Virus record (IMG/VR): IMGVR_UViG_3300021962_000642 | Coordinates: 1 to 24,076 of that record | DNA length: 24,076 bases | Direction: 5' to 3' (one strand) | Source: a virus | Part shown: piece after piece, positions 2,275 to 23,857 of the stretch | Layout: each line of letters begins with the position of its first letter | How positions within the stretch are numbered: the first letter of the stretch is position 1 | Translations under genes and position numbers: made by a program | The notes under the pieces: model-generated | Told to the model about the DNA's origin: nothing | Databases searched by the model: none | What the model saw: only the letters and a program-made list of their open reading frames with translations

Positions 2275-3207
2275 ATGGAACAGAAAACAAAAGAGGTTAA
2301 GAACGGAATATATGACACTTCCGAAAAAGCAAATGGCAATTTAGTATTTCATATTAATGGTGGACTTGGTAAATGTATTATGGCTACTGCTGTTATTCGT
2401 TCCTATAAAACAGCGTATCCAAAGTCGAAAATCGTGGTAGTGTCTGGCTACCCAGAAGTATTTCTACATAACCCAGATGTTTACAAGAATTTTCCGTTTG
2501 CTACACCATATCTTTGGCAGGACTACTACGGTAACCCAGATTACAAAGTGTATGCACACGATCCATATTTAAACGTAAAATGGATTAAGAACTTCCCAAC
2601 CCACTTTATTAAGATCTGGTGTGAGGAAATGTTTATCCCGTGCACACAAGAAACACCATTGCTTTTCTTTAGCGGACCAGAAGCTGACGAACTTAATGCT
2701 ATGATTCAGGTTCCCAAACCCCTTTTAGTAGTGCAATCAACAGGTGGTTCTACACCATCTGCCAGATCTTGGACCAGAAATCCACCACCACACGAACTCG
2801 AAGAATACCTGGCCAAGTACAAAGAAACACACTACATCCTACACTTGGCAGTTAAAGACACTCCAGTTTTGCAAAATATAGATCAGAGAGTAGACTCTTT
2901 CGATCGGAGAAAAGCTATGTGTCTAATGTATTTTGCCAACGAGGTATTGGGAATTGACTCCTACGGACTACATGCCAGAGCAGCAAATCCTAACGCTGGT
3001 CCCTCAACATTTTTCCTTCCGCTTGCCGAGTCAGAACAACGATTGGGCTATGCCTTAAAAAACATGAAATACCTGACCCCTTCTCAGGAAGTTCAGGATT
3101 TACTTAAGAATCACCAAGACTATTATGCTACGGTGTTTAAGTTGGGCATAGAAGATGCCTCAGAAAACTGTCCAGTTCCTATTGGAACCAGATGGTTTAA
3201 CTTTTAA
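2275..3207 (+). CDS. GT9-like (heptosyltransferase-type) glycosyltransferase
   Basis: This 310-residue protein is the only plus-strand gene. Residues 26-42 (HINGGLGKCIMATAVI) form a Gly-rich turn and helix like those opening GT-B glycosyltransferases of the ADP-heptose/GT9 type. A second strand-turn (KIVVVSGYPEVFLHNPDV) follows, and the C-terminal half contains VLGIDSYGLHARAAN at the place of the GT9 donor-binding motif (normally DTGxxHxA). That deviation makes the donor sugar uncertain. It would act in the host cytoplasm. Likely substrates are the virion's own Ser/Thr-rich fibres encoded next door, or host surface glycans to block superinfection; both are inference. Its stop overlaps the stop of the facing fibre gene by three bases in TTTTAAAA. 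Being alone on the opposite strand suggests separate timing or later acquisition. Confidence 0.7.
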   Translation: MEQKTKEVKNGIYDTSEKANGNLVFHINGGLGKCIMATAVIRSYKTAYPKSKIVVVSGYPEVFLHNPDVYKNFPFATPYLWQDYYGNPDYKVYAHDPYLNVKWIKNFPTHFIKIWCEEMFIPCTQETPLLFFSGPEADELNAMIQVPKPLLVVQSTGGSTPSARSWTRNPPPHELEEYLAKYKETHYILHLAVKDTPVLQNIDQRVDSFDRRKAMCLMYFANEVLGIDSYGLHARAANPNAGPSTFFLPLAESEQRLGYALKNMKYLTPSQEVQDLLKNHQDYYATVFKLGIEDASENCPVPIGTRWFNF

Positions 3208-3981: not shown

Positions 3982-6438
3982 TTATCCGAAATTTACTGCC
4001 CATGCACCGAAGTAATCAGTGCCGTTATACTGAAGTGTTACTAAATCTACAGCACCAACTGTTGTTGATAATGTAGGAGGAACTGAATTTGCCCATTTGA
4101 TAGTTGGCCAAGTAATAGAGTAAGAACCAACACCGCCTTGTGTGATAGTAATGCTGTAGTTAGCTCCTGCGATAGGATTGCTTAAACCAAGGTTAACTGC
4201 TCCAACCAAATCTACTGACTGGTTGTTACCGTTATTCCAATCCAAAGTTACGTTACCAGTAATGTTACCTACTGCGTGGAATTTAGAAGCACCTTGACCG
4301 AAAGCAATTAAGTGGTTAACGTGAGTAGCCCCAACTTTTTCAGAAGTTAAACCTGATCCAATTACATAAGCATTATCGTGACAAACAAAGCTGGCTCTAC
4401 CAAATACACCATTACAGTTTCCAGCATTAGCTTGGTTATTATAACCAACTAAAACTGTAGTATTTGCTCCACTGTTGTAGTTAGTATCTCCTATCAATGT
4501 AGAAGAAAAATTACCCTGGTTTTGGTTGTTATTTCCGAAAAGATAACCATAACCACAGTTAGTAGAATTAGAACCAATAACTATGGAATAAACAGAATAG
4601 TTGTTACTTTCTTGACCGATTAAGATCGAGTAGTTATATGGGGGATTGTTATTTACTGTGTTTAATTGATTTAAAAAGTTACCAATTACAATACCAGCAC
4701 TCGCATGGCTGTGAGTAATTCTGTTACCAATGTTGATAGATCCAACGTCTGTAGCATTCCAAGCTGAACACTGGTTAACTACCAAGCTACAGCTTCCAAT
4801 TGCTATAATTGCAGGAGCAACTCCACCACCCCAGCAATTTACAGGAACTACTCTATTTCCAATTACTGTTTGTGTGTTTGTATAAGAGGTTGTTCCAGGA
4901 CCGATACTGATACCGCCACTGGTTGAAGCAGCACCAAAACCTATAGCGTTATTAACAGTGCCTACTGCATTTTCTCCGATGATAATAGCATCAGTAGTAA
5001 CCCCTGCAGTAGCACCAATTGCATCAGAAATTAAAGTGCTTGTGTTAACAACTGAAATTGGGCTTGGAGTTCCAGAAATACCAGAGGTTCCAGATGTTCC
5101 GTTTACACCAGATGTTCCGCTGGTTCCTGATCCGTCTACACCAGAGGTTCCGGAAGAACCAGATTGACCAGAGGTTCCAGAAGATCCAGATACACCAGAG
5201 GTTCCAGAAGAACCCGAACTACCAGATGTTCCAGAAGAACCGTTAGCACCTGAAGTTCCAGAAGATCCAGAGCTTCCTGATGAGCCCGATTGGCCTGAAG
5301 TTCCTGAAGACCCTGAACTACCAGAGGATCCAGATTGTCCAGATGTTCCTGAAGATCCTGAACTACCCGAGGATCCAGATTGTCCTGAAGTTCCTGAAGT
5401 TCCATTAACACCAGAGGTTCCAGAAGAACCAGATGAACCTGATGATCCCGAACTTCCGCTACCGCCTGAACCTGTTACACCGACTATACCTAAACTGTTA
5501 ACTGTTAGTAATGAAACTGAAGGGGTTGCTAAAGCTGCAAAAGTTAAATTATCAGCAAAGTATGCATCACCACCAAAGTTTATTTCATTTTCACCTATAA
5601 CAATATAAGGGAAACCTGCAGTTGTGCCAATATAAGCACCTGTTGCAGAACCAAAAGTTTGTACAGAAGCATTAGCTAAAATGTATTCCGAACTGTAAAT
5701 ATCATAATCACCCGTAAAATTACCTTGTGCAAGTGTTTGTTGCAAATTCTGGTTAGGAGAAACCCCAGAGGTTCCAGATGATCCGTTAACACCTGAGGTT
5801 CCAGAAGATCCATCAGCACCTGAAGTTCCCGAAGAACCGTTTACACCCGACGTTCCAGAAGAACCACTTGCACCACTGTTTCCAGAAGAACCAGATGAAC
5901 CTGATGATCCAGAACTGCCTGACGACCCTGAACTACCACTTGATCCGGAACTACCACTTGATCCAGAGTTGCCTGAAGATCCTGATGATCCAGAACTACC
6001 TGAAGAACCTGAACTTCCACTTGAACCGGAGTTACCAGAAGAACCAGAACTTCCAGAAGAACCAGAAGATCCTGAGCTACCTGACGATCCTGAGCTACCT
6101 GAAGATCCTGAGCTACCGCTCAAACCTGAAGTTCCCGAAGATCCTGAACTACCTGATGAACCGGAAGTTCCAGAGTTTCCGTTAACACCAGAGGTTCCAG
6201 AAGAACCAGATACACCCGATGTTCCAGAAGTGCCAGAGGTTCCCGATGCACCAGTAGGACCAATCGGTCCACCAGTTACGTTACCTGTAAAATTAATAGT
6301 GGTGTTGGAAACCTCGAAGGGTAATACGTTTCCAAATCCATCAGTCACTGGGGCAAGAGCTCCGGTAAGCCCAGCAGCCCCTACATTCAGCACACCACCG
6401 TAGGTAGCGCATATCGAAGTTCCGGTTAAATTGCTCAT
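3982..6438 (-). CDS. Long collagen-like tail fibre with a YadA-like head
   Basis: The 818 residues are modular. Residues 1-56 form an N-terminal attachment region. Residues about 57-227 are Gly-X-Y repeats, mostly GSS and GTS with almost no Pro after the first GPIGPTG. Residues about 228-320 form a globular spacer, and about 322-458 a second Gly-X-Y block. Residues about 462-715 contain short repeats of the type SILIGxxSN, SIVIGSNS, TVLVGYNN, as in the left-handed beta-roll heads of trimeric autotransporters. The last 100 residues (ITWPTIKWAN, YNGTDYFGAW) resemble the C-terminal domain of phage fibres. A trimeric, receptor-binding fibre is the natural reading. An ATACTT element precedes the ATG. 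Confidence 0.82.
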   Translation of the reverse strand: MSNLTGTSICATYGGVLNVGAAGLTGALAPVTDGFGNVLPFEVSNTTINFTGNVTGGPIGPTGASGTSGTSGTSGVSGSSGTSGVNGNSGTSGSSGSSGSSGTSGLSGSSGSSGSSGSSGSSGSSGSSGSSGSSGNSGSSGSSGSSGSSGSSGSSGNSGSSGSSGSSGSSGSSGSSGSSGSSGSSGNSGASGSSGTSGVNGSSGTSGADGSSGTSGVNGSSGTSGVSPNQNLQQTLAQGNFTGDYDIYSSEYILANASVQTFGSATGAYIGTTAGFPYIVIGENEINFGGDAYFADNLTFAALATPSVSLLTVNSLGIVGVTGSGGSGSSGSSGSSGSSGTSGVNGTSGTSGQSGSSGSSGSSGTSGQSGSSGSSGSSGTSGQSGSSGSSGSSGTSGANGSSGTSGSSGSSGTSGVSGSSGTSGQSGSSGTSGVDGSGTSGTSGVNGTSGTSGISGTPSPISVVNTSTLISDAIGATAGVTTDAIIIGENAVGTVNNAIGFGAASTSGGISIGPGTTSYTNTQTVIGNRVVPVNCWGGGVAPAIIAIGSCSLVVNQCSAWNATDVGSINIGNRITHSHASAGIVIGNFLNQLNTVNNNPPYNYSILIGQESNNYSVYSIVIGSNSTNCGYGYLFGNNNQNQGNFSSTLIGDTNYNSGANTTVLVGYNNQANAGNCNGVFGRASFVCHDNAYVIGSGLTSEKVGATHVNHLIAFGQGASKFHAVGNITGNVTLDWNNGNNQSVDLVGAVNLGLSNPIAGANYSITITQGGVGSYSITWPTIKWANSVPPTLSTTVGAVDLVTLQYNGTDYFGAWAVNFG
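5065..5471 (-). repeat. Second Gly-X-Y coding repeat block of the long fibre
   Basis: A degenerate 9-base repeat encodes [12 protein letters not shown] triplets. Codons for Gly and Ser vary between copies, so the array is not a recent exact expansion. One phase defect, GVDGSGTSG, lies near 5125-5145. Confidence 0.85.
5758..6270 (-). repeat. First Gly-X-Y coding repeat block of the long fibre
   Basis: About 57 consecutive Gly-X-Y triplets, dominated by GSS, with GNS, GTS and GVN interruptions. At the DNA level this is a run of degenerate 9-base units that could recombine and change shaft length. Confidence 0.85.
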
Positions 6439-9199: not shown

Positions 9200-10159
9200 T
9201 TATGCTTTTAAGTCTCCGAACAAATACCAAGTATCAGTTCCAGTTTTCAATAGGGTTGCTGCAGAATTTTGGTAGTTAAGATTCTTATAACCTTGTGCAG
9301 AGTTTAGTGTTACTCCTCCAGTTGCAGCAATATCTACTGCTCCTGCACCACTTCTAACAATTAGAATTTGGGCACCAATTTGGAAAGCCTGCGAAGAGTT
9401 AAGAGGAACTGTTACAGTAGTAGCAGAACCAGATGTCATTGTAACTGCTTTACCCGAGTCAGCAACTACCAATCCGTAAGAAGATGTTTGGTTGTTGATG
9501 GTAACAAAAGCAGTATCTATACCCGAGGTGCCTGATGTTCCTGAAGAACCGCTAATACCCGAAGTGCCCGAAGTGCCTGATCCGTCTACCCCAGAAGTGC
9601 CAGAAGAACCACTGGTTCCATTAACACCTGAAGTTCCATCTACACCACTTGTTCCGTTTACACCCGAGGTGCCATCTACACCAGATGTTCCAGAAGAACC
9701 AGTTTGCCCCGAGGTTCCTGAAGAACCTGAAGATCCAGACGAACCTGACTGTCCAGAAGAACCACTGGTTCCATTAGCACCAGAAGTTCCATTAACTCCG
9801 CTGGTTCCGTTTACACCAGATGTTCCGTTAACCCCAGAGGTTCCGTCTATACCCGAGGTTCCAGAAGAACCTGAGTTACCTGAAGTGCCTGAAGAACCAG
9901 AAATACCCGATGTTCCTGAACTGCCACTAACACCAGAAGTTCCGTTTACCCCCGACGTTCCAGACGTTCCTGAAGAACCAGACGAACCAGATATAAGTGC
10001 AGAGTTTCCGTTAGAATCTATTAGATAAACTTTGTCTCCTGAACCGGATGTAGACCCATACATTGCCACATAACCAGCAGGTGGAATTTCGGGTGAATTA
10101 GTTAGGGAGAAATTTATCTGGCCTCCCGTTGTGCCGACTATGAATTTTGCGTTGCTCAT
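9200..10159 (-). CDS. Shorter collagen-like tail fibre protein
   Basis: The 319 residues have an N-terminal region with a [14 protein letters not shown] turn (1-57), a Gly-X-Y shaft at about 58-215 ([10 protein letters not shown] and GSSG variants, no Pro) and a compact C-terminal domain at about 218-319 ([38 protein letters not shown]). That C-terminal layout is common in phage fibre heads and ends right after the aromatic LFG motif. The shaft shows the same [12 protein letters not shown] phase break as the long fibre, pointing to shared ancestry. It starts the host-contact gene block and is followed almost without gap by the glycine-rich copy 1. The leader is A-rich with no Shine-Dalgarno sequence. 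Confidence 0.8.
9514..9990 (-). repeat. Gly-X-Y coding repeat block of the shorter fibre
   Basis: About 52 Gly-X-Y triplets encoded by degenerate 9-base DNA units, with more GVN, GVD and GID variants than in the long fibre. One phase break lies near 9571-9600. Confidence 0.85.
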
Positions 10160-14619: not shown

Positions 14620-16872
14620 TTATAGTGCTGCCAAATCGGAGATACGTTTATCTGCTTCTTGCTGCGAGGATACCTCAGAGGCAACTACATAGGTTTTAAC
14701 AATAGGTTGTTGCATAGACTGCTGGGATGACATCATAGACGAATTCTGATTACCTTGGTCGTTAATGCTTTCGAGTAGCGGTAAGAAATCCATAGTTGCT
14801 TTTCTGTTTACTACAAATTCTCCGCCCTCCAGTTCTCCAGAGAATGTTCTAACGCCACCACTGTCATGTGAAGGACCGTTTATTAGACCACCTTCTGCAA
14901 ACTTAGAACCTGCAGCACCACCGCCATACTGTGTTGCTTGGATCTGGGCAACGTTTGCCATACCAGTTGCTACGACCAATGCTGCTAATACACCGCCGAC
15001 TGCTATACCTAAACCTGGTGCGATCTTGTTTAGGTTCTGAACTGAGGTAAATGCTGAAACTGCACCAGTAATAGTAGAGATAATAGATTCTGCTATTTGC
15101 AGTTTCTTGTTCTGCTCAAAATATTTCTTTTCGATTTCTTCTCTTGCTGCTGCATCTTCACCTGCTGCTTTCAATTCTCTTGCTTTAGCAGCTTCTTGCA
15201 TAGCACCAATAGTTGCTAAAGTCTGTCCTGCTACAGCAACTGCGGCGTCGTAAAGTGCCTGTGCGTTTGCTTTCTTTTCCTCTGTAGTTCTCTTGTCGTT
15301 ATCTGCTACAGCGTTGTCAGCATCTATTTGAACCTGGGCAGTGTCCAGAGCAAGTTGTTTAACCTTTGCGTTATAGTCTGTATCCAGTTCTAACTTCTGG
15401 GTTAGTAGATCTCCATACTCTTGAGTTTCTGTTAGACCTGCATCTTGCAGTCTTTTAAGTTCAGAATCTATTTCACCTGTTCTCTTATCGTATGCTTCTT
15501 TGTCTAAAGCTCTTTGCTTTTCTATTCTGTCCTTTTCAATCTTAACAAGTTCTTGTGCCTTCTTAAACTCATCTGTAATTGTGTTCGCCCGGATCTTCTT
15601 AAGTTCGGTATCGAAATCCAGAGCAGATTGCTTTTCGTCTTGACTTGCTTGGTATCTTGCATCATTAAGTTTCTTCTGTAGATCGATGCGTTCCTTGGTC
15701 AGTGTATTCTGGTTTTGCAGTGCCTCAGTTTCCTGACCAGTAATACGTTCGTTAAGTTCTGAAAGTTGTAACTGTGCTGCTTTTAGTTTAACTAAGTCGT
15801 CGTTAGATTTAGTTAGTGCATATTGGGCGGCTGCAGCAGCAATGATAATATTGATCTGCTCCTTCTCTTTCTCTGCCTGTTCTTTCTGTGATGCTAATAG
15901 ATCTTGGTTTGCTTTAAGTCTATCACCCAAAGACTTAGTCTCGTCATCACGAAGTTGGCGTAGTTTTTCCTGAGTTGCCTGATAATCAAGTTGTATCTTT
16001 TGCCTGGCTGCTTCAGCCAATGCTGCTTGTTTCTGCAACTGAACTGCACGCTCTGCTTGTTTGTTAAGTGCTTTAAAATCGGTATTCTTAATACCTTCTG
16101 TTACACCATCTACTACTGCAGTTAAACCATCCGCAATTTCACCAACCGCTTTACCAAAATTCTGGGCAATTTCTTTTCCGCCTTTAGCAATCTCTTTGCC
16201 CGCCTCTCCTATTTTTTCTTTAGTTAGGCCGATTTCTTTATTAAGTGCCTCGATCTTCTTGGTGTCACCAGAACCAAATATGCTATCTTCCCACGCTGCC
16301 TGAACCTCAAGTGTAATTAACTTAATGCCCTGTAGTGCAGCAATCAAAATGTTCAAGGCAACTTTCAATGCACCGCCCAGTAGTTTCTGGGTTGCCTCGA
16401 ATCCACCATTTTGTTTGCCTATAGCTTCTACGTTTTTAAATACCGCATCTGTTACATTAGCAACCAATCCGTTCAGGATATTTAAACCTTGTCCTAATAG
16501 ATCCGTTGCCTTTTGTGAGCCTTTTAGTGCACCAGTAAACGCACCGAATATTGCTGCTGCACCCGTCCATTTTGCAACTTTACCAAAAGCACTTGCTGCA
16601 CCTTTACCGACATTCACGATACCCTTGCCTACGCTAACCGCACTCTTAGAAATCTTGCCCATAACAGATGCGAATCCGCTGGCTTTCTTAGATGCCTTAC
16701 CTAACTCGTCTCCTGCTTTGTCTGCAGCGGTAGCAAGGTTTGCAGCACCTTGTGTGGTTTTTGCCTGGTTGGTTATAATTTCCTTTTGCAAGGTTATTAG
16801 TTCCTCCATCGAATTGATTAACTTATCAATTCCATCGGCACTAATTTTTATTTTAAAATCGTCTTGGGCCAT
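14620..16872 (-). CDS. Tail tape measure protein
   Basis: The 750-residue protein has the expected tape-measure profile. A helical N-terminus is followed by Gly/Ala/Lys-rich amphipathic repeats (GKGIVNVGKGAASAFGKVAK) at about 70-150 and a hydrophobic segment at about 165-190. A very long Gln/Lys/Glu/Ala-rich coiled-coil region spans about 260-560, a membrane-active segment (GLGIAVGGVLAALVVATGMA) lies near 620-645, and a C-terminal FAEGGLINGPSHDSGG/GELEGGEFVVNRKAT motif starts at about 658. That Gly-rich motif is characteristic of phage tape-measure C-termini. The protein sets tail length and takes part in DNA ejection. A variant ATATTT element lies 16 bases before the ATG. Confidence 0.9.
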   Translation of the reverse strand: MAQDDFKIKISADGIDKLINSMEELITLQKEIITNQAKTTQGAANLATAADKAGDELGKASKKASGFASVMGKISKSAVSVGKGIVNVGKGAASAFGKVAKWTGAAAIFGAFTGALKGSQKATDLLGQGLNILNGLVANVTDAVFKNVEAIGKQNGGFEATQKLLGGALKVALNILIAALQGIKLITLEVQAAWEDSIFGSGDTKKIEALNKEIGLTKEKIGEAGKEIAKGGKEIAQNFGKAVGEIADGLTAVVDGVTEGIKNTDFKALNKQAERAVQLQKQAALAEAARQKIQLDYQATQEKLRQLRDDETKSLGDRLKANQDLLASQKEQAEKEKEQINIIIAAAAAQYALTKSNDDLVKLKAAQLQLSELNERITGQETEALQNQNTLTKERIDLQKKLNDARYQASQDEKQSALDFDTELKKIRANTITDEFKKAQELVKIEKDRIEKQRALDKEAYDKRTGEIDSELKRLQDAGLTETQEYGDLLTQKLELDTDYNAKVKQLALDTAQVQIDADNAVADNDKRTTEEKKANAQALYDAAVAVAGQTLATIGAMQEAAKARELKAAGEDAAAREEIEKKYFEQNKKLQIAESIISTITGAVSAFTSVQNLNKIAPGLGIAVGGVLAALVVATGMANVAQIQATQYGGGAAGSKFAEGGLINGPSHDSGGVRTFSGELEGGEFVVNRKATMDFLPLLESINDQGNQNSSMMSSQQSMQQPIVKTYVVASEVSSQQEADKRISDLAAL

Positions 16873-19900: not shown

Positions 19901-20275
19901 AAATGCAGACGTAGTGCCTAAAAAGGTAATCTCGTATTCTATTTTGCCCGTAGAATCGTTTCTGACAATATTCATTAACTGGATATTGCCCACCTCGAAC
20001 GATGCACCATCTACCAGAATGTAAGCAGCAGTTCTCCTGGTTGCATTGAAGTCTATTGCGTTAACATTAAACACCGACTTAAAAAATATACCATTGGGCG
20101 TTGTATGCGGAACCCTAAAGGTTCTACTGAAAGCAGACTTGTTAACAGTAATATCGTCGACGGATAAAACCGATTTAGTTATCTTAATTGGTTCCTGAGG
20201 GTATAAGTCTAACTCGACGTATCCTGCGTATCCAGTTGCACCCTGATCTAAGGCATAAAGTTGAACGTATTGCAT
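16913..20275 (-). CDS. Large tail-tip/baseplate-like protein with Cys-cluster repeats
   Basis: The 1120 residues divide in two. Residues 1-750 are beta-rich, with an N-terminal ELDLYPQEPIKITKSVLSV and a region at about 430-560 (VQYKQLEFIKAINDRFKLVW, FLIEPYNDWVKGG) like the central tail-tip/hub protein of other Bacteroidota phages. Residues about 760-1000 contain repeated Cys clusters: CDACCC (about 762) and CSGCDC (819), CEVCCC (843) and CTTCIC (905), then a degenerate ACCIE (930). Each unit has about 65 residues and a G.Y or LWY turn between clusters. The last part (about 1000-1120) is beta-rich. It likely forms the tail tip reaching the cell; the Cys units may bind metal or be disulfide-linked. 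TAATG couples it to the upstream gene. Confidence 0.7.
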   Translation of the reverse strand: MQYVQLYALDQGATGYAGYVELDLYPQEPIKITKSVLSVDDITVNKSAFSRTFRVPHTTPNGIFFKSVFNVNAIDFNATRRTAAYILVDGASFEVGNIQLMNIVRNDSTGKIEYEITFLGTTSAFATEVGPRDLSALDLSNLSHSYTYANIIKSWSPGAMGLLNGDIVYPLAEYGYTYDDQNQPEQSTLTKFNGTTSQQGFTNSSHPLDILQFKPAIRTKVIWDAIFAGTNYTYTSNFVENTLNRVYYLGSNYASPFSVPDINFSANTKQGPTLNPVIGFPPLKIPIGSVIENYGNAWDPINNWYKVPVSNLTYNFELKLAARVTPNPFFVTPNFNVLLRMNVKRNGVVVQTVDRTVRPDKVMIPAITKTVLLSVGGTTSPTNFPVFTGLSLQQNDLVEFYIVNIGNQYDVFQLRFGGTITLTIPTPQTLDPTGFLPVQYKQLEFIKAINDRFKLVWEPDKDNPNNFLIEPYNDWVKGGTQKDWTDKLNENSDIAIQPLFYTQPREFIFKDSEEGDLYNKNYQDSYKETFGQYNIDSGIELITGVKEIKSLFSPLPLAPLGLSTKFLIPHFCLDTEAQRQPMQIKPRIGFYNGLVDVPDSSFNWFLDNNGTPVVQTKYPLFSSFDTYPFNADSFDLNWLNPTQFWDKQFVGFDGRTEQTAFTQYWANWWESLYDPYSRIMEATFALDVEDVQGLSFNDKIFVKDSWWLVLEIKDFVLNAKNNVRVKLLKLGNLGINITGISVGIRRYLQSGICFSETLCDACCCLTYSAPVYTDGETFADSSTVSYDIAGDQPVLDGYYFDGVDVYVVSFGNIQAVGTCSGCDCVPGGLTEFNNVCVGNNFCEVCCCSVGEISIWGNGASLELSSRVFSTEDGAPLTPGLWYKNIGDGSAIQVGPDGTTVIGIGLCTTCICNPLEDKSEFVVASDSVSACCIEAPNSDGVQSMYTNTGVLQTATDFYYDPYEQYPVGGTGSVYVSNGQYYVDVTGPTAGATGNCVFPAIGCTGRSETIVFNVQNAGATAGEITSTYYISFNGVDYFYNGQDFDSGSSFNVNHYPTYATGSNFQYQFTVPAPYTGSAEVKYFKNAVLYLTDNVITPASYNGPNLGPVGADTWNVDVTIQIN

Positions 20276-21669
20276 TATTGATTTTGCTTTTGTTGAACCT
20301 TGGTGTATTGTAAACTGTAAGTTGCTTGGGTTAACTTAACTTGTTTAACTAACCTATAGGCGTAATCAACGGTGAGACTTTTTATTGTTAGTGGGGTAGG
20401 TGTATCTCCTACATAAACCAAAATGTCTGGAGACTGTGAAATGTATCCTAAGAAGTCTAATTGGTCTTGGGTTAACCAGTCACTCTGTATCTCCATTGTT
20501 TCTGTTACAGTCTTGTTAAATGATTTAGACCCGCCTCTCATATAGTTAGGCGATAAGTTGCTATCGATGCCGTTAACTGCTACAGGTCTTGTGCCCGACC
20601 AGTTTAATGGGGTTTGGAAATATTCTGAACCCGGAGAGTTAGTTACCTTTTGGTAAAACATTGTGAAGTTCCAGTAATCACGTCCGCCTAATTCGTTCAA
20701 CCAAGACACACGAACTCTGGGGTATAAGTAGTTACAGTCAGGTTGAACTCTGTATGTTATGAGTTCCGACGCTGCAGTTCCGGGCGAGGTTGAAGTAGTG
20801 GCAGATGACTTTACAAACGCCTGAACGGTGTAGTAAGACGTATTGTTGTCCCAAATGCCGTGAGTCCTTAAATTCTCCGGACCAGTCTTAACAGTTAACT
20901 GTGTAGTTGCCTGGTTGAAAACCTGAGATGTATAAGCAGCAGTTGTCTGTGGACCACCACCTGCAGAAATTAAGTTCTGAACATTGTCCGTTCTAAGAAG
21001 AGTGCCAGCAGAGTTGTATTGTTTGTATTGGATCAATTGAACTGCGTAATTAAAAGATGAACCCAGTTCGTTCCAGTTTAAGAACGATAGCGTGCTGTAG
21101 TCATAGTTGTAAACGTATCTTGTAGTTGTATCTTGCGATAAAAACTTACCATTAGTATCCATAATGTAATCAGACCAGAAAACATAGTTTGTGGTTGATG
21201 CCATATTGTTAATAGCGGTTTGATATGGTAAAGCAGCGGGGATTACCAAAACTGTAGAACCAGCACCTTCTTCATTACCTAATGGGAATTGGGGAACGCC
21301 AATGTTACCATACCCATCTTCAGTTACAATAGCACCAGTGTTATCCTCGTATTGTTCGCCTACTAAAATATCTACAGTAGCCAAGATGTTTGCTGAATTA
21401 CCAAACATAGTAGGATAGTAGTCATTTTCTACTGAATAAAGAGTTAGATCAATATAGGGTTGGAGAATAGACGAGATGTCTAACATGCCTACCCCAGTAG
21501 GATTAGGTCTTTGTCTAATAGTTGCATTAGGACCTGTGGCACCGTTGATATAGACCTCGAAGACGTAAACCATATCTGTTGAACTGGCTAAACTTGATGT
21601 GCACGAATACACTATTGGGTTATACGCTGGAGACCAGTAATGGGGTTTGAAATTTACTGCAGTAATCAT
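20275..21669 (-). CDS. Tail-tip/distal tail-like protein
   Basis: The 464-residue beta-rich protein starts at an ATG that overlaps the TGA of the chaperone's -1 frame (ATGA) and ends in a TAATG overlap with the next gene. N-terminal FKPHYWSPAYNPIVYSC, then DMVYVFEVYING and LDISSILQPYIDLT, repeats a strand layout I recognise from structural proteins of Bacteroidota phages that sit between the chaperone and the hub. The C-terminal part (TETMEIQSDWLTQDQLDFLG and SLTVDYAYRLVKQVKLTQAT) resembles the adaptor strands of distal-tail-like proteins. It probably joins the tail tube to the large tip protein. The precise family is not certain. Confidence 0.65.
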   Translation of the reverse strand: MITAVNFKPHYWSPAYNPIVYSCTSSLASSTDMVYVFEVYINGATGPNATIRQRPNPTGVGMLDISSILQPYIDLTLYSVENDYYPTMFGNSANILATVDILVGEQYEDNTGAIVTEDGYGNIGVPQFPLGNEEGAGSTVLVIPAALPYQTAINNMASTTNYVFWSDYIMDTNGKFLSQDTTTRYVYNYDYSTLSFLNWNELGSSFNYAVQLIQYKQYNSAGTLLRTDNVQNLISAGGGPQTTAAYTSQVFNQATTQLTVKTGPENLRTHGIWDNNTSYYTVQAFVKSSATTSTSPGTAASELITYRVQPDCNYLYPRVRVSWLNELGGRDYWNFTMFYQKVTNSPGSEYFQTPLNWSGTRPVAVNGIDSNLSPNYMRGGSKSFNKTVTETMEIQSDWLTQDQLDFLGYISQSPDILVYVGDTPTPLTIKSLTVDYAYRLVKQVKLTQATYSLQYTKVQQKQNQ

Positions 21670-21953
21670 CTTATGTTTTGTTTGATTTGCTTTATTGCTT
21701 CTCGCTCTTTTTTAATTTGGTCTTGTTTCCACGCGAGCCAGTTGAAGCCTTCTCTGATCCTAAGGTTGGTAGCTTTATGAAATCTTGTGGGGTCTTCAGC
21801 TGCAAGGGTGTTAATAAGGATCCACCAGTTTCTTGCAACCCTAACGCCATATTTCTCATTGCTTTGCTTTCTACCTCGGACAGGTTCATCTCCTCCGTTA
21901 GATTCAGCAAATAGGTTACGATATTCTCGAAAGATCGATTCGCGAAACGCAAA
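21666..21953 (-). CDS. -1 frameshift extension of the tail assembly chaperone (GT-like)
   Basis: In the -1 frame relative to the upstream ORF, 95 codons are open from the T-run to TGA at 21668-21666. The frame opens only four codons before the slippery run (TAA at 21974-21972) and contains no ATG, GTG or TTG, so it can hardly be expressed alone. It reads FAFRESIFREYRNLFAESNG and later KYGVRVARNWWILINTLAAE, then LRIREGFNWLAWKQD and a Lys/Glu-rich helix. This looks like the T portion of lambda GT-type chaperones, which binds the tape measure. Its TGA overlaps the ATG of the next gene (ATGA), as other junctions in this block do. The predicted fusion has 271 residues. A homopolymer sequencing error is the main alternative; either way this segment appears to be true coding sequence. 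Confidence 0.75.
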   Translation of the reverse strand, partial: FAFRESIFREYRNLFAESNGGDEPVRGRKQSNEKYGVRVARNWWILINTLAAEDPTRFHKATNLRIREGFNWLAWKQDQIKKEREAIKQIKQNIR

Positions 21954-22480
21954 AAAAAACTTATCGCTGACTTAACATATTGGAGTGGTAACTCTTTGAA
22001 AATCTCGCACTGTTCGTCGTAGTTAATCTCATTGTAGGGAACAATATCCTTAGTAAATACGTTCTTCTTGATTATAGGGCGATAAAGAATAGCAAGGACC
22101 TTGTGATACTTTAGGTGTAGGTCTTCAGAATTTGCCAAGACATCTAAGTCTGCAAATTCACCAATGGTCATATCGTTCATGTTTACCAGACCATACTTAA
22201 CACCATTGAAAGTAAACTCCTGAGAGATCTGTTGGATATCTTGGGTAAAGTAAAAGTTAAGCATGCCTACTATACTCGCCCATAGCATCTTCCAGTTATC
22301 TGTCTTAAGTTCTCTAAGCAATTTAACTTCGCAACCAGATAGTGCAGAGGCAATAGCAAAGTGTGCATCTAAGTCATCTCTGTCGATATCAGAATAGATC
22401 TCGTAATACTGTCGGAGAGTAACAGTTCCTATAACATAGTCCTGACCTCTAAGTGTGAATGTTATTTTTTGGTTGTTCAT
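21692..22480 (-). CDS. Tail assembly chaperone (G-like, 0-frame product)
   Basis: The 262-residue ORF begins MNNQKITFTLRGQDYVIGTV and is mostly helical. Strand residues (FTFNGVKYGLVNMNDMTIGE) are followed by ADLDVLANSEDLHLKYHKVL, a pattern I associate with phage tail chaperones. It sits upstream of the tape measure in the tail block, as G proteins do. Codons 174-176 (AGT TTT TTT) contain a canonical T TTT TTT slippery heptamer. Without slippage translation continues 86 codons to TAA 21694-21692, giving an acidic helical stretch (TEEMNLSEVESKAMRNMALG) and a Lys/Ser-rich end. With -1 slippage it joins the extension at 21666-21953. Whether both tails are used is untested. An ATGA overlap joins it to the upstream gene. 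Confidence 0.72.
   Translation of the reverse strand: MNNQKITFTLRGQDYVIGTVTLRQYYEIYSDIDRDDLDAHFAIASALSGCEVKLLRELKTDNWKMLWASIVGMLNFYFTQDIQQISQEFTFNGVKYGLVNMNDMTIGEFADLDVLANSEDLHLKYHKVLAILYRPIIKKNVFTKDIVPYNEINYDEQCEIFKELPLQYVKSAISFFLRFANRSFENIVTYLLNLTEEMNLSEVESKAMRNMALGLQETGGSLLTPLQLKTPQDFIKLPTLGSEKASTGSRGNKTKLKKSEKQ
21953..21959 (-). promoter_or_regulatory. Candidate -1 ribosomal frameshift site (T TTT TTT)
   Basis: A run of nine T on the minus strand (21959-21951) is read AGT TTT TTT TTG in the 0 frame, so the heptamer T TTT TTT has the X XXY YYZ phase needed for tandem slippage. I see only short palindromes just downstream (TTCGCGAA, TCGA...TCGA), so no strong stimulatory structure is evident by eye. 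Confidence 0.7.
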
Positions 22481-22857
22481 TTAAATTGTCTTTGTAAGTA
22501 TTTCTTAATAGCTCCTGTGATTAAAACATTTGTAGCTTTTAAGACACGGGGAGGAATAGTTAACCAGAATCTGGGTTTTATTCCGTCGTCTCCTTTGCCC
22601 GGGTTAGGATCCCAAGGCTTTCTATCTTTAGCAGCATATCTGCCTGTTCCCATATCTAAGTAAACCCCGTAACCATCCGCCTCTACAATAAACCCGAAAT
22701 CGGATGTCGATGAGTATCTTGGTATTACCTTAACACTCTTTTTAAGATCGCCCCGGTCCCTACCTTCTTTAGCTACGGGTGCTTGATTCTTTAAGGCAAT
22801 AGCAATTATTCTGCTTGCCTTGTCCATAGCCATTTTTATTTCGGTAGGTATTTTCAT
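22477..22857 (-). CDS. HK97-gp10-like head-tail connector/tail completion protein
   Basis: The 126-residue basic protein has the gp10-family profile. An N-terminal amphipathic helix (MDKASRIIAIALKNQAPV) is followed by a loop ending RGDLKKSVKVI, a strand (FGFIVEADGYGVYLDMGTGR) in which Y-x-x-Y/L-x-x-G-T is the family hallmark, and a C-terminal helix (TNVLITGAIKKYLQRQF). Such proteins close the neck or join head and tail. The start overlaps the upstream stop as TAATG and its stop overlaps the chaperone start as ATGA, so the set is translationally coupled. Confidence 0.75.
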   Translation of the reverse strand: MKIPTEIKMAMDKASRIIAIALKNQAPVAKEGRDRGDLKKSVKVIPRYSSTSDFGFIVEADGYGVYLDMGTGRYAAKDRKPWDPNPGKGDDGIKPRFWLTIPPRVLKATNVLITGAIKKYLQRQFK

Positions 22858-23359: not shown

Positions 23360-23857
23360 TTATCGAAGTTTCTTTCCAGATATCTTCCAGCCCTCGATAA
23401 TTGGTTCCTGCCCGGTTTCTATAGCATGCCTAATCTTAGTGGCATGAATGAGAGTTATCTCTGCTGCTTTAGCAAGACTTAGCCCAATATGCACAATTGG
23501 TGTGCCCACCTTTTCTACAATAATAGAGTAGTTAATAGAGCATTCGAATGGCTCGTGCCAGAACAGATTTGTAATAGCCAGGTTATCTCTGTCTGCATCT
23601 TTAAAACCTACATGAGGAAGATTATCTGGGTTAGGTAGCCAAGTAGCTGCTAACACCTTGTGTGCAGATTGTGTTCTGGCAAGTTCAGGTCTTTGGGGAT
23701 TGCCTAAGGTAACAGAGTGGTAACCAGTTACTGGGTTCTTATATGTTCTGCGGAGTTTGCCCGCCACAGTGCCTTTGCCGGCTTTGCATCTTCTGAAGTT
23801 ACCTAAGTCCGAACATTCATAGTTTGGGAACTGCTCTATTACTTTCCAATTTTCCAT
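23360..23857 (-). CDS. NUMOD4/HNH homing-endonuclease-like protein
   Basis: Residues 4-22 (WKVIEQFPNYECSDLGNFRR) are a clear NUMOD4 DNA-binding motif. Residues 66-100 have the layout of the HNH_3 nuclease (HKVLAATWLPNPDNLPHVGF, then DN and TNLFW). The His usually found in the V-N-H-x-D motif is Phe85 here (VGFKDA), so the core may be inactive or rely on His82. The C-terminal 60 residues (LSLAKAAEITLIHATKIRHAIETG) resemble a NUMOD1/helix-turn-helix tail. Such free-standing genes insert between phage genes and spread by cutting gene-less relatives. It separates the terminase from the tail block, consistent with an insertion, and has short gaps on both sides. Confidence 0.8.
   Translation of the reverse strand: MENWKVIEQFPNYECSDLGNFRRCKAGKGTVAGKLRRTYKNPVTGYHSVTLGNPQRPELARTQSAHKVLAATWLPNPDNLPHVGFKDADRDNLAITNLFWHEPFECSINYSIIVEKVGTPIVHIGLSLAKAAEITLIHATKIRHAIETGQEPIIEGWKISGKKLR

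Follow-up and report, generated by a model that had tools for sequence, protein, structure and literature searches.

Extension of a tail assembly chaperone by a -1 change of frame is a known kind of phage gene expression, and in the lambda-type chaperones ribosomal slippage is the known mechanism (PMC5009743). Slippery sequences differ in strength: in E. coli, U_UUU_UUU is reported to shift far less readily than A_AAA_AAG and represents a weak shift site (PMC5009743), and in a reporter test a tail chaperone cluster gave 6-7% frameshifting (PMC3711429). RNA polymerase can also change the frame of a message. The usual site of such transcriptional realignment is a homopolymer of eight or more (PMC3711429), and selection against A or T runs begins at nine nucleotides in many bacteria (PMC1088944).

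Here we highlight a gene on the minus strand of a 24,076-nucleotide stretch of viral DNA, referred to as the window. We lean towards the explanation that it encodes a chaperone of the G/GT type whose frame change would occur mostly where RNA polymerase slips on nine consecutive T's. The features on which this reading draws are the following, together with what each rests on:

22477-22857, minus strand: preceding gene, tail completion (HK97 gp10-like), 126 aa; PHROG 5 match, weak PF04883 match; overlaps the chaperone start
21692-22480, minus strand: 0-frame gene, putative G-like tail assembly chaperone, 262 aa; open reading frame, PHROG 32199 match and predicted fold
21951-21959, minus strand: T9 run, proposed slip site; sequence, and T9-T11 in relatives
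21953-21959, minus strand: T_TTT_TTT heptamer in 0-frame phase, inside the T9 run; sequence
21666-21953, minus strand: -1-frame extension, putative T-like domain, 95 codons plus TGA; translation, conserved motif and predicted helices
21692-21950, minus strand: stretch readable in both frames downstream of T9; constraint on both frames
20275-21669, minus strand: following gene, 464 aa, tail gene of unnamed function, without family match; its ATGA start overlaps the -1-frame stop
14620-16872, minus strand: tape measure protein gene, third downstream; PHROG 1538, E 1e-9

Within the 262-codon frame the run is read as AGT TTT TTT TTG CGT, and it is the only A or T homopolymer of nine or more in the window. 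The -1 frame opens after a TAA, 12 nt 5' of the T's (GTC AGC GAT AAG TTT), and this opening contains neither ATG, GTG nor TTG. After the slip it encodes 95 residues (FAFRES...QNIR), which together with the 176 residues ahead of it give a predicted fusion of 271 aa. Since the 0 frame itself stays open for 85 codons beyond T9, nearly the whole tail is dual coding. An earlier note on this DNA had claimed an in-phase T_TTT_TTT within T9, a start-less -1 frame with a 12-nt lead and 95 codons, and a 271-residue fusion; the run is found as described (minus strand, 21959-21951), translation confirms the frame, and the fusion length is correct. The same note had also drawn on the overlap between the -1-frame stop (TGA, 21668-21666) and the ATG of the following gene (ATGATT). 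The overlap is present in the window, but it does not discriminate between the frames, because the arrangement is swapped in the relative L003/L008, where the 0 frame runs into the next gene's ATGA and the -1 frame stops 22 nt earlier.

The gene lies between neck/tail-completion genes and tail genes, and the tape measure gene follows after two further genes, of 464 and 1120 aa. Relatives carry the terminase ahead of the chaperone gene, and in the window's subfamily the neck genes as well; a PHROG 38559 gene comes next in the window, in phage P12024S and in relative L078. A second frame that lacks a start and is linked by a -1 step to the late part of the first gene is a trait of the G/GT type and is present here. 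Position and organisation make a lambda G/GT-type tail assembly chaperone very probable; we infer this function because the anatomy fits that type, and no curated family names the gene. PHROG 32199, whose function is unknown, covers 0-frame residues 20-181, in 12 of 34 members the -1 part matches PHROG 38404, and the 'tail protein' family PHROG 166 gave weak matches to 7 of the 34. Pfam returned no match for the gene. Fold comparison with solved chaperones gave only the HK97 chaperone 2ob9 at a non-significant E of about 6, and a named viral chaperone was matched weakly (E 0.026). A further fold match of low TM-score, R9VW65 of Flavobacterium phage 6H, was dropped, as it has no T run of seven or more and no comparable -1 frame.

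Some observations on databases and surroundings stand beside these results. PHROG 32199 and PHROG 38404, both families of unknown function, match the G-like and some of the T-like parts of what is apparently one gene. Five BFVD proteins of 234-260 aa (A0A516L611, A0A516L5A8, A0A6J5MY57, A0A6J7WJY4 and A0A6J7XA66) match both the G-like and the T-like models, as expected if the two halves belong together; they are possibly in-frame fusions, annotated frameshifts or homopolymer indels. Elsewhere in the window, a homing-type gene (23360-23857, minus strand) that resembles HNH endonucleases and carries a NUMOD4 motif sits after the end of the terminase gene and ahead of the tail-completion genes. 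Two minus-strand genes (3982-6438 and 9200-10159) encode proteins with long collagen-like GSSGTSG repeats and a Pfam Collagen match, probably fibres, and the only long plus-strand gene in the minus-strand block (2275-3207, 310 aa) has no Pfam match.

As a single-protein query, the window's gene found no match in viral contigs or cultured phages. A first relative, a 28-kb viral contig, was reached via the portal protein; its 0-frame homologue is 31% identical and carries T9 in identical phase, and its -1 peptide is 41% identical (E 3e-20). Alignment-seeded scans yielded at least several hundred relatives, from which 223 loci (some sharing a contig) were analysed and 219 are intact at the site. 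The run is T9 in 148 of these, T10 in 68, T11 in two and T8 in one (L189), which places T9-T11 in 218 of 219 intact loci from about 33 clusters (<50% identity), and the -1 frame past the run has a median length of 86 codons. The conservation of run and -1 frame, which the earlier note had proposed to check in related phages, is thereby established, and chance origin is excluded because the arrangement is conserved among relatives. L189 may represent an assembly error or a shorter functional run. In another locus, L012, a T7 run was initially taken as the site and then rejected, the homologous site being T9.

The -1 domain leads to the same site when used on its own. A scan seeded by this domain alone found T9 or T10 at the domain start in 78 of 78 loci, some on contigs counted already, with no in-frame fusion among them. 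Across 34 aligned relatives the domain keeps the motif FR...Y..LF...KWGWY...GDI.KF..TKL...LTYL. No relatives were found in the GTDB genomes scanned, and the only cultured relatives found are the Nonlabens phages P12024S and P12024L, the latter a relative by protein match only. The P12024S annotation lists the two parts as separate hypothetical proteins, gp38 and gp39, in agreement with the claim that automatic annotation overlooks the extension.

Selection on both frames can be read from their divergence. In a clade of 49 members the 0 frame closes while the -1 frame is still open. There, third positions of the -1 frame diverge by 0.09 over the last ten codons ahead of the 0-frame stop and by 0.37 over the first ten beyond it, with regional means of 0.16 and 0.33. 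This step at the end of the 0 frame indicates that its tail restrains sequence change over its whole length. The window's subfamily (14 sequences) retains 51% identity in the -1 domain, 52% in the G domain and 40% in the 0-frame tail, and every codon position of the overlap diverges less than the third positions ahead of the shift (0.62). These patterns indicate that the short and the extended product are both under selection, and the proposed check on synonymous-site constraint accordingly shows both frames constrained. Structure prediction is in line with this: it was mostly confident for residues 1-217 of the 0-frame product, with disorder at 219-262, and for residues 34-93 of the -1 domain, which are predicted to form helices.

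Against this background, the idea that the two frames stem from a wrong run length or from a gene with one dead frame is most improbable for the window and already refuted for the family as a whole. Homopolymers are error-prone, but the identical two-frame layout recurs in contigs of many metagenomes and in one sequenced isolate, T10 and T11 members retain both frames, and the selection just described acts on both. It is also improbable that the -1 frame is expressed separately, by internal initiation or re-initiation, and that no fusion is made. The annotated start of P12024S gp39, an ATG that shares bases with the 0-frame stop (TAATGG), would fit such a route; among the 219 loci, however, a -1-frame ATG occurs upstream of the run in five and within 20 codons downstream in two, and conservation of the -1 frame sets in directly at the run (L/F-x-F-R).

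The remaining question concerns the machine that slips. The earlier note had named a tail chaperone with a programmed -1 ribosomal shift; the conserved start-less extension and the G/GT anatomy stand, and the ribosome is one of two candidates for the slipping machine. Classical frameshifting, in which a pair of Phe-tRNAs moves back by one base on T_TTT_TTT, agrees with the precedent of the lambda-type chaperones and with the reporter value given above, and the heptamer is in phase in every intact member. To place it in phase, however, a run that starts at codon position 3, 2 or 1 requires seven, eight or nine T's, respectively, and the observed minimum is nine in all three registers, bar the single T8. 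Where fewer T's precede the core, more follow it (Fisher test across cluster-by-register states, p 2e-6, an optimistic value because clusters share ancestry). The comparison set, 376 kb comprising 474 other genes from these loci, holds no T run of nine or more against 4.6 expected and five A runs of that length against 25 expected, a fivefold depletion. It does tolerate 37 in-phase T7/T8 heptamers; in-phase T7/T8 runs are no more depleted than out-of-phase ones (ratios 0.69 and 0.68), so that avoidance is not register-specific. Neither kind of stimulator was detected: folding after the run resembles shuffled sequence (mean z 0.03, in a model that leaves pseudoknots aside), and the best upstream Shine-Dalgarno match is 2-4 of 6. 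The low shift-proneness of U_UUU_UUU likewise speaks against the ribosome. With runs of nine or more in all registers, T≥9 absent elsewhere, T7/T8 tolerated and no stimulator, we favour RNA polymerase slippage with modest confidence, and regard ribosomal slippage as a tentative, less probable alternative. On the ribosomal reading, the additional T's would be a by-product of amino-acid and dual-coding demands, or would enhance the slip. Several points do weigh against the polymerase: part of the local sequence is dictated by the two phenylalanines with their hydrophobic or aromatic neighbours and by the dual-coding overlap, T8 occurs in L189, the avoidance of long runs elsewhere may stem from replication slippage, and longer U runs could also aid ribosomal slipping.

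If polymerase slippage is the main route, the gene would work as follows. It would mostly give the G-like 0-frame protein of 262 aa, and a minor product of 271 aa would join the G domain to a folded -1-frame (T-like) domain. RNA polymerase would slip on the nine T's, adding one U (or dropping two), and ordinary translation of the altered mRNA would then read SFFFAFRE; the ribosome may contribute at T_TTT_TTT. As the gene's position and organisation suggest, the two proteins would together cover the tape measure protein and bring in tail-tube subunits. We infer both the synthesis of the fusion and the role of the polymerase from sequence features. A peptide spanning SFFFAFRE would demonstrate the fusion but not the mechanism, because both mechanisms yield the identical protein.

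A -1 extension of a tail chaperone is not new in kind. As far as the searchable literature shows, the new elements are an unannotated family, a tail that in the window's subfamily is dual coding almost throughout, and a register-free T9-T11 run that suggests a different slipping machine; our searches of open-access papers turned up no tail chaperone for which polymerase slippage is described. The results suggest a likely function and a complete product for PHROG 32199, in hundreds of uncultured phage contigs, and they explain why gene callers lose half of the longer protein. We incline slightly towards the wider proposal that widespread uncultured phages set their G:GT ratio by polymerase slippage on register-free runs of T9-T11, while one stretch of DNA encodes two alternative C-terminal tails. 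If the polymerase is what slips, the product ratio would depend on host transcription and not on translation, and the dosage of tail chaperones would have been solved by two different machineries. The same is the case for dnaX.

Altogether, the locus shares traits with three kinds of described systems. Like lambda gpG/gpGT, and the HK97 gp13-type genes, it would yield a short product and a -1-extended one from a single gene not far from the tape measure gene, with a shared N-terminal domain, a separate C-terminal domain and a start-less -1 frame. It differs from lambda, where the ribosome slips (PMC5009743), in the T9-T11 homopolymer used in any register, in the long, dual-coding 0-frame tail, in the position of the tape measure gene three genes downstream, and in having no detectable sequence homology. 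In Shigella mxiE, IS elements and Thermus dnaX, a run of about nine T's or A's likewise bridges two frames and structure is unneeded, and in mxiE the longer product arises via a U added at a U run (PMC1088944); these are cellular or transposon genes, whereas the window's is a phage tail gene with a proposed slip. The third kind comprises gp38-gp39 of the Nonlabens phages P12024S and P12024L (PHROG 32199). The P12024S 0-frame product is shorter than that of the window (175 aa) and the pair is annotated as two proteins, yet it has T9 followed by a -1 frame.
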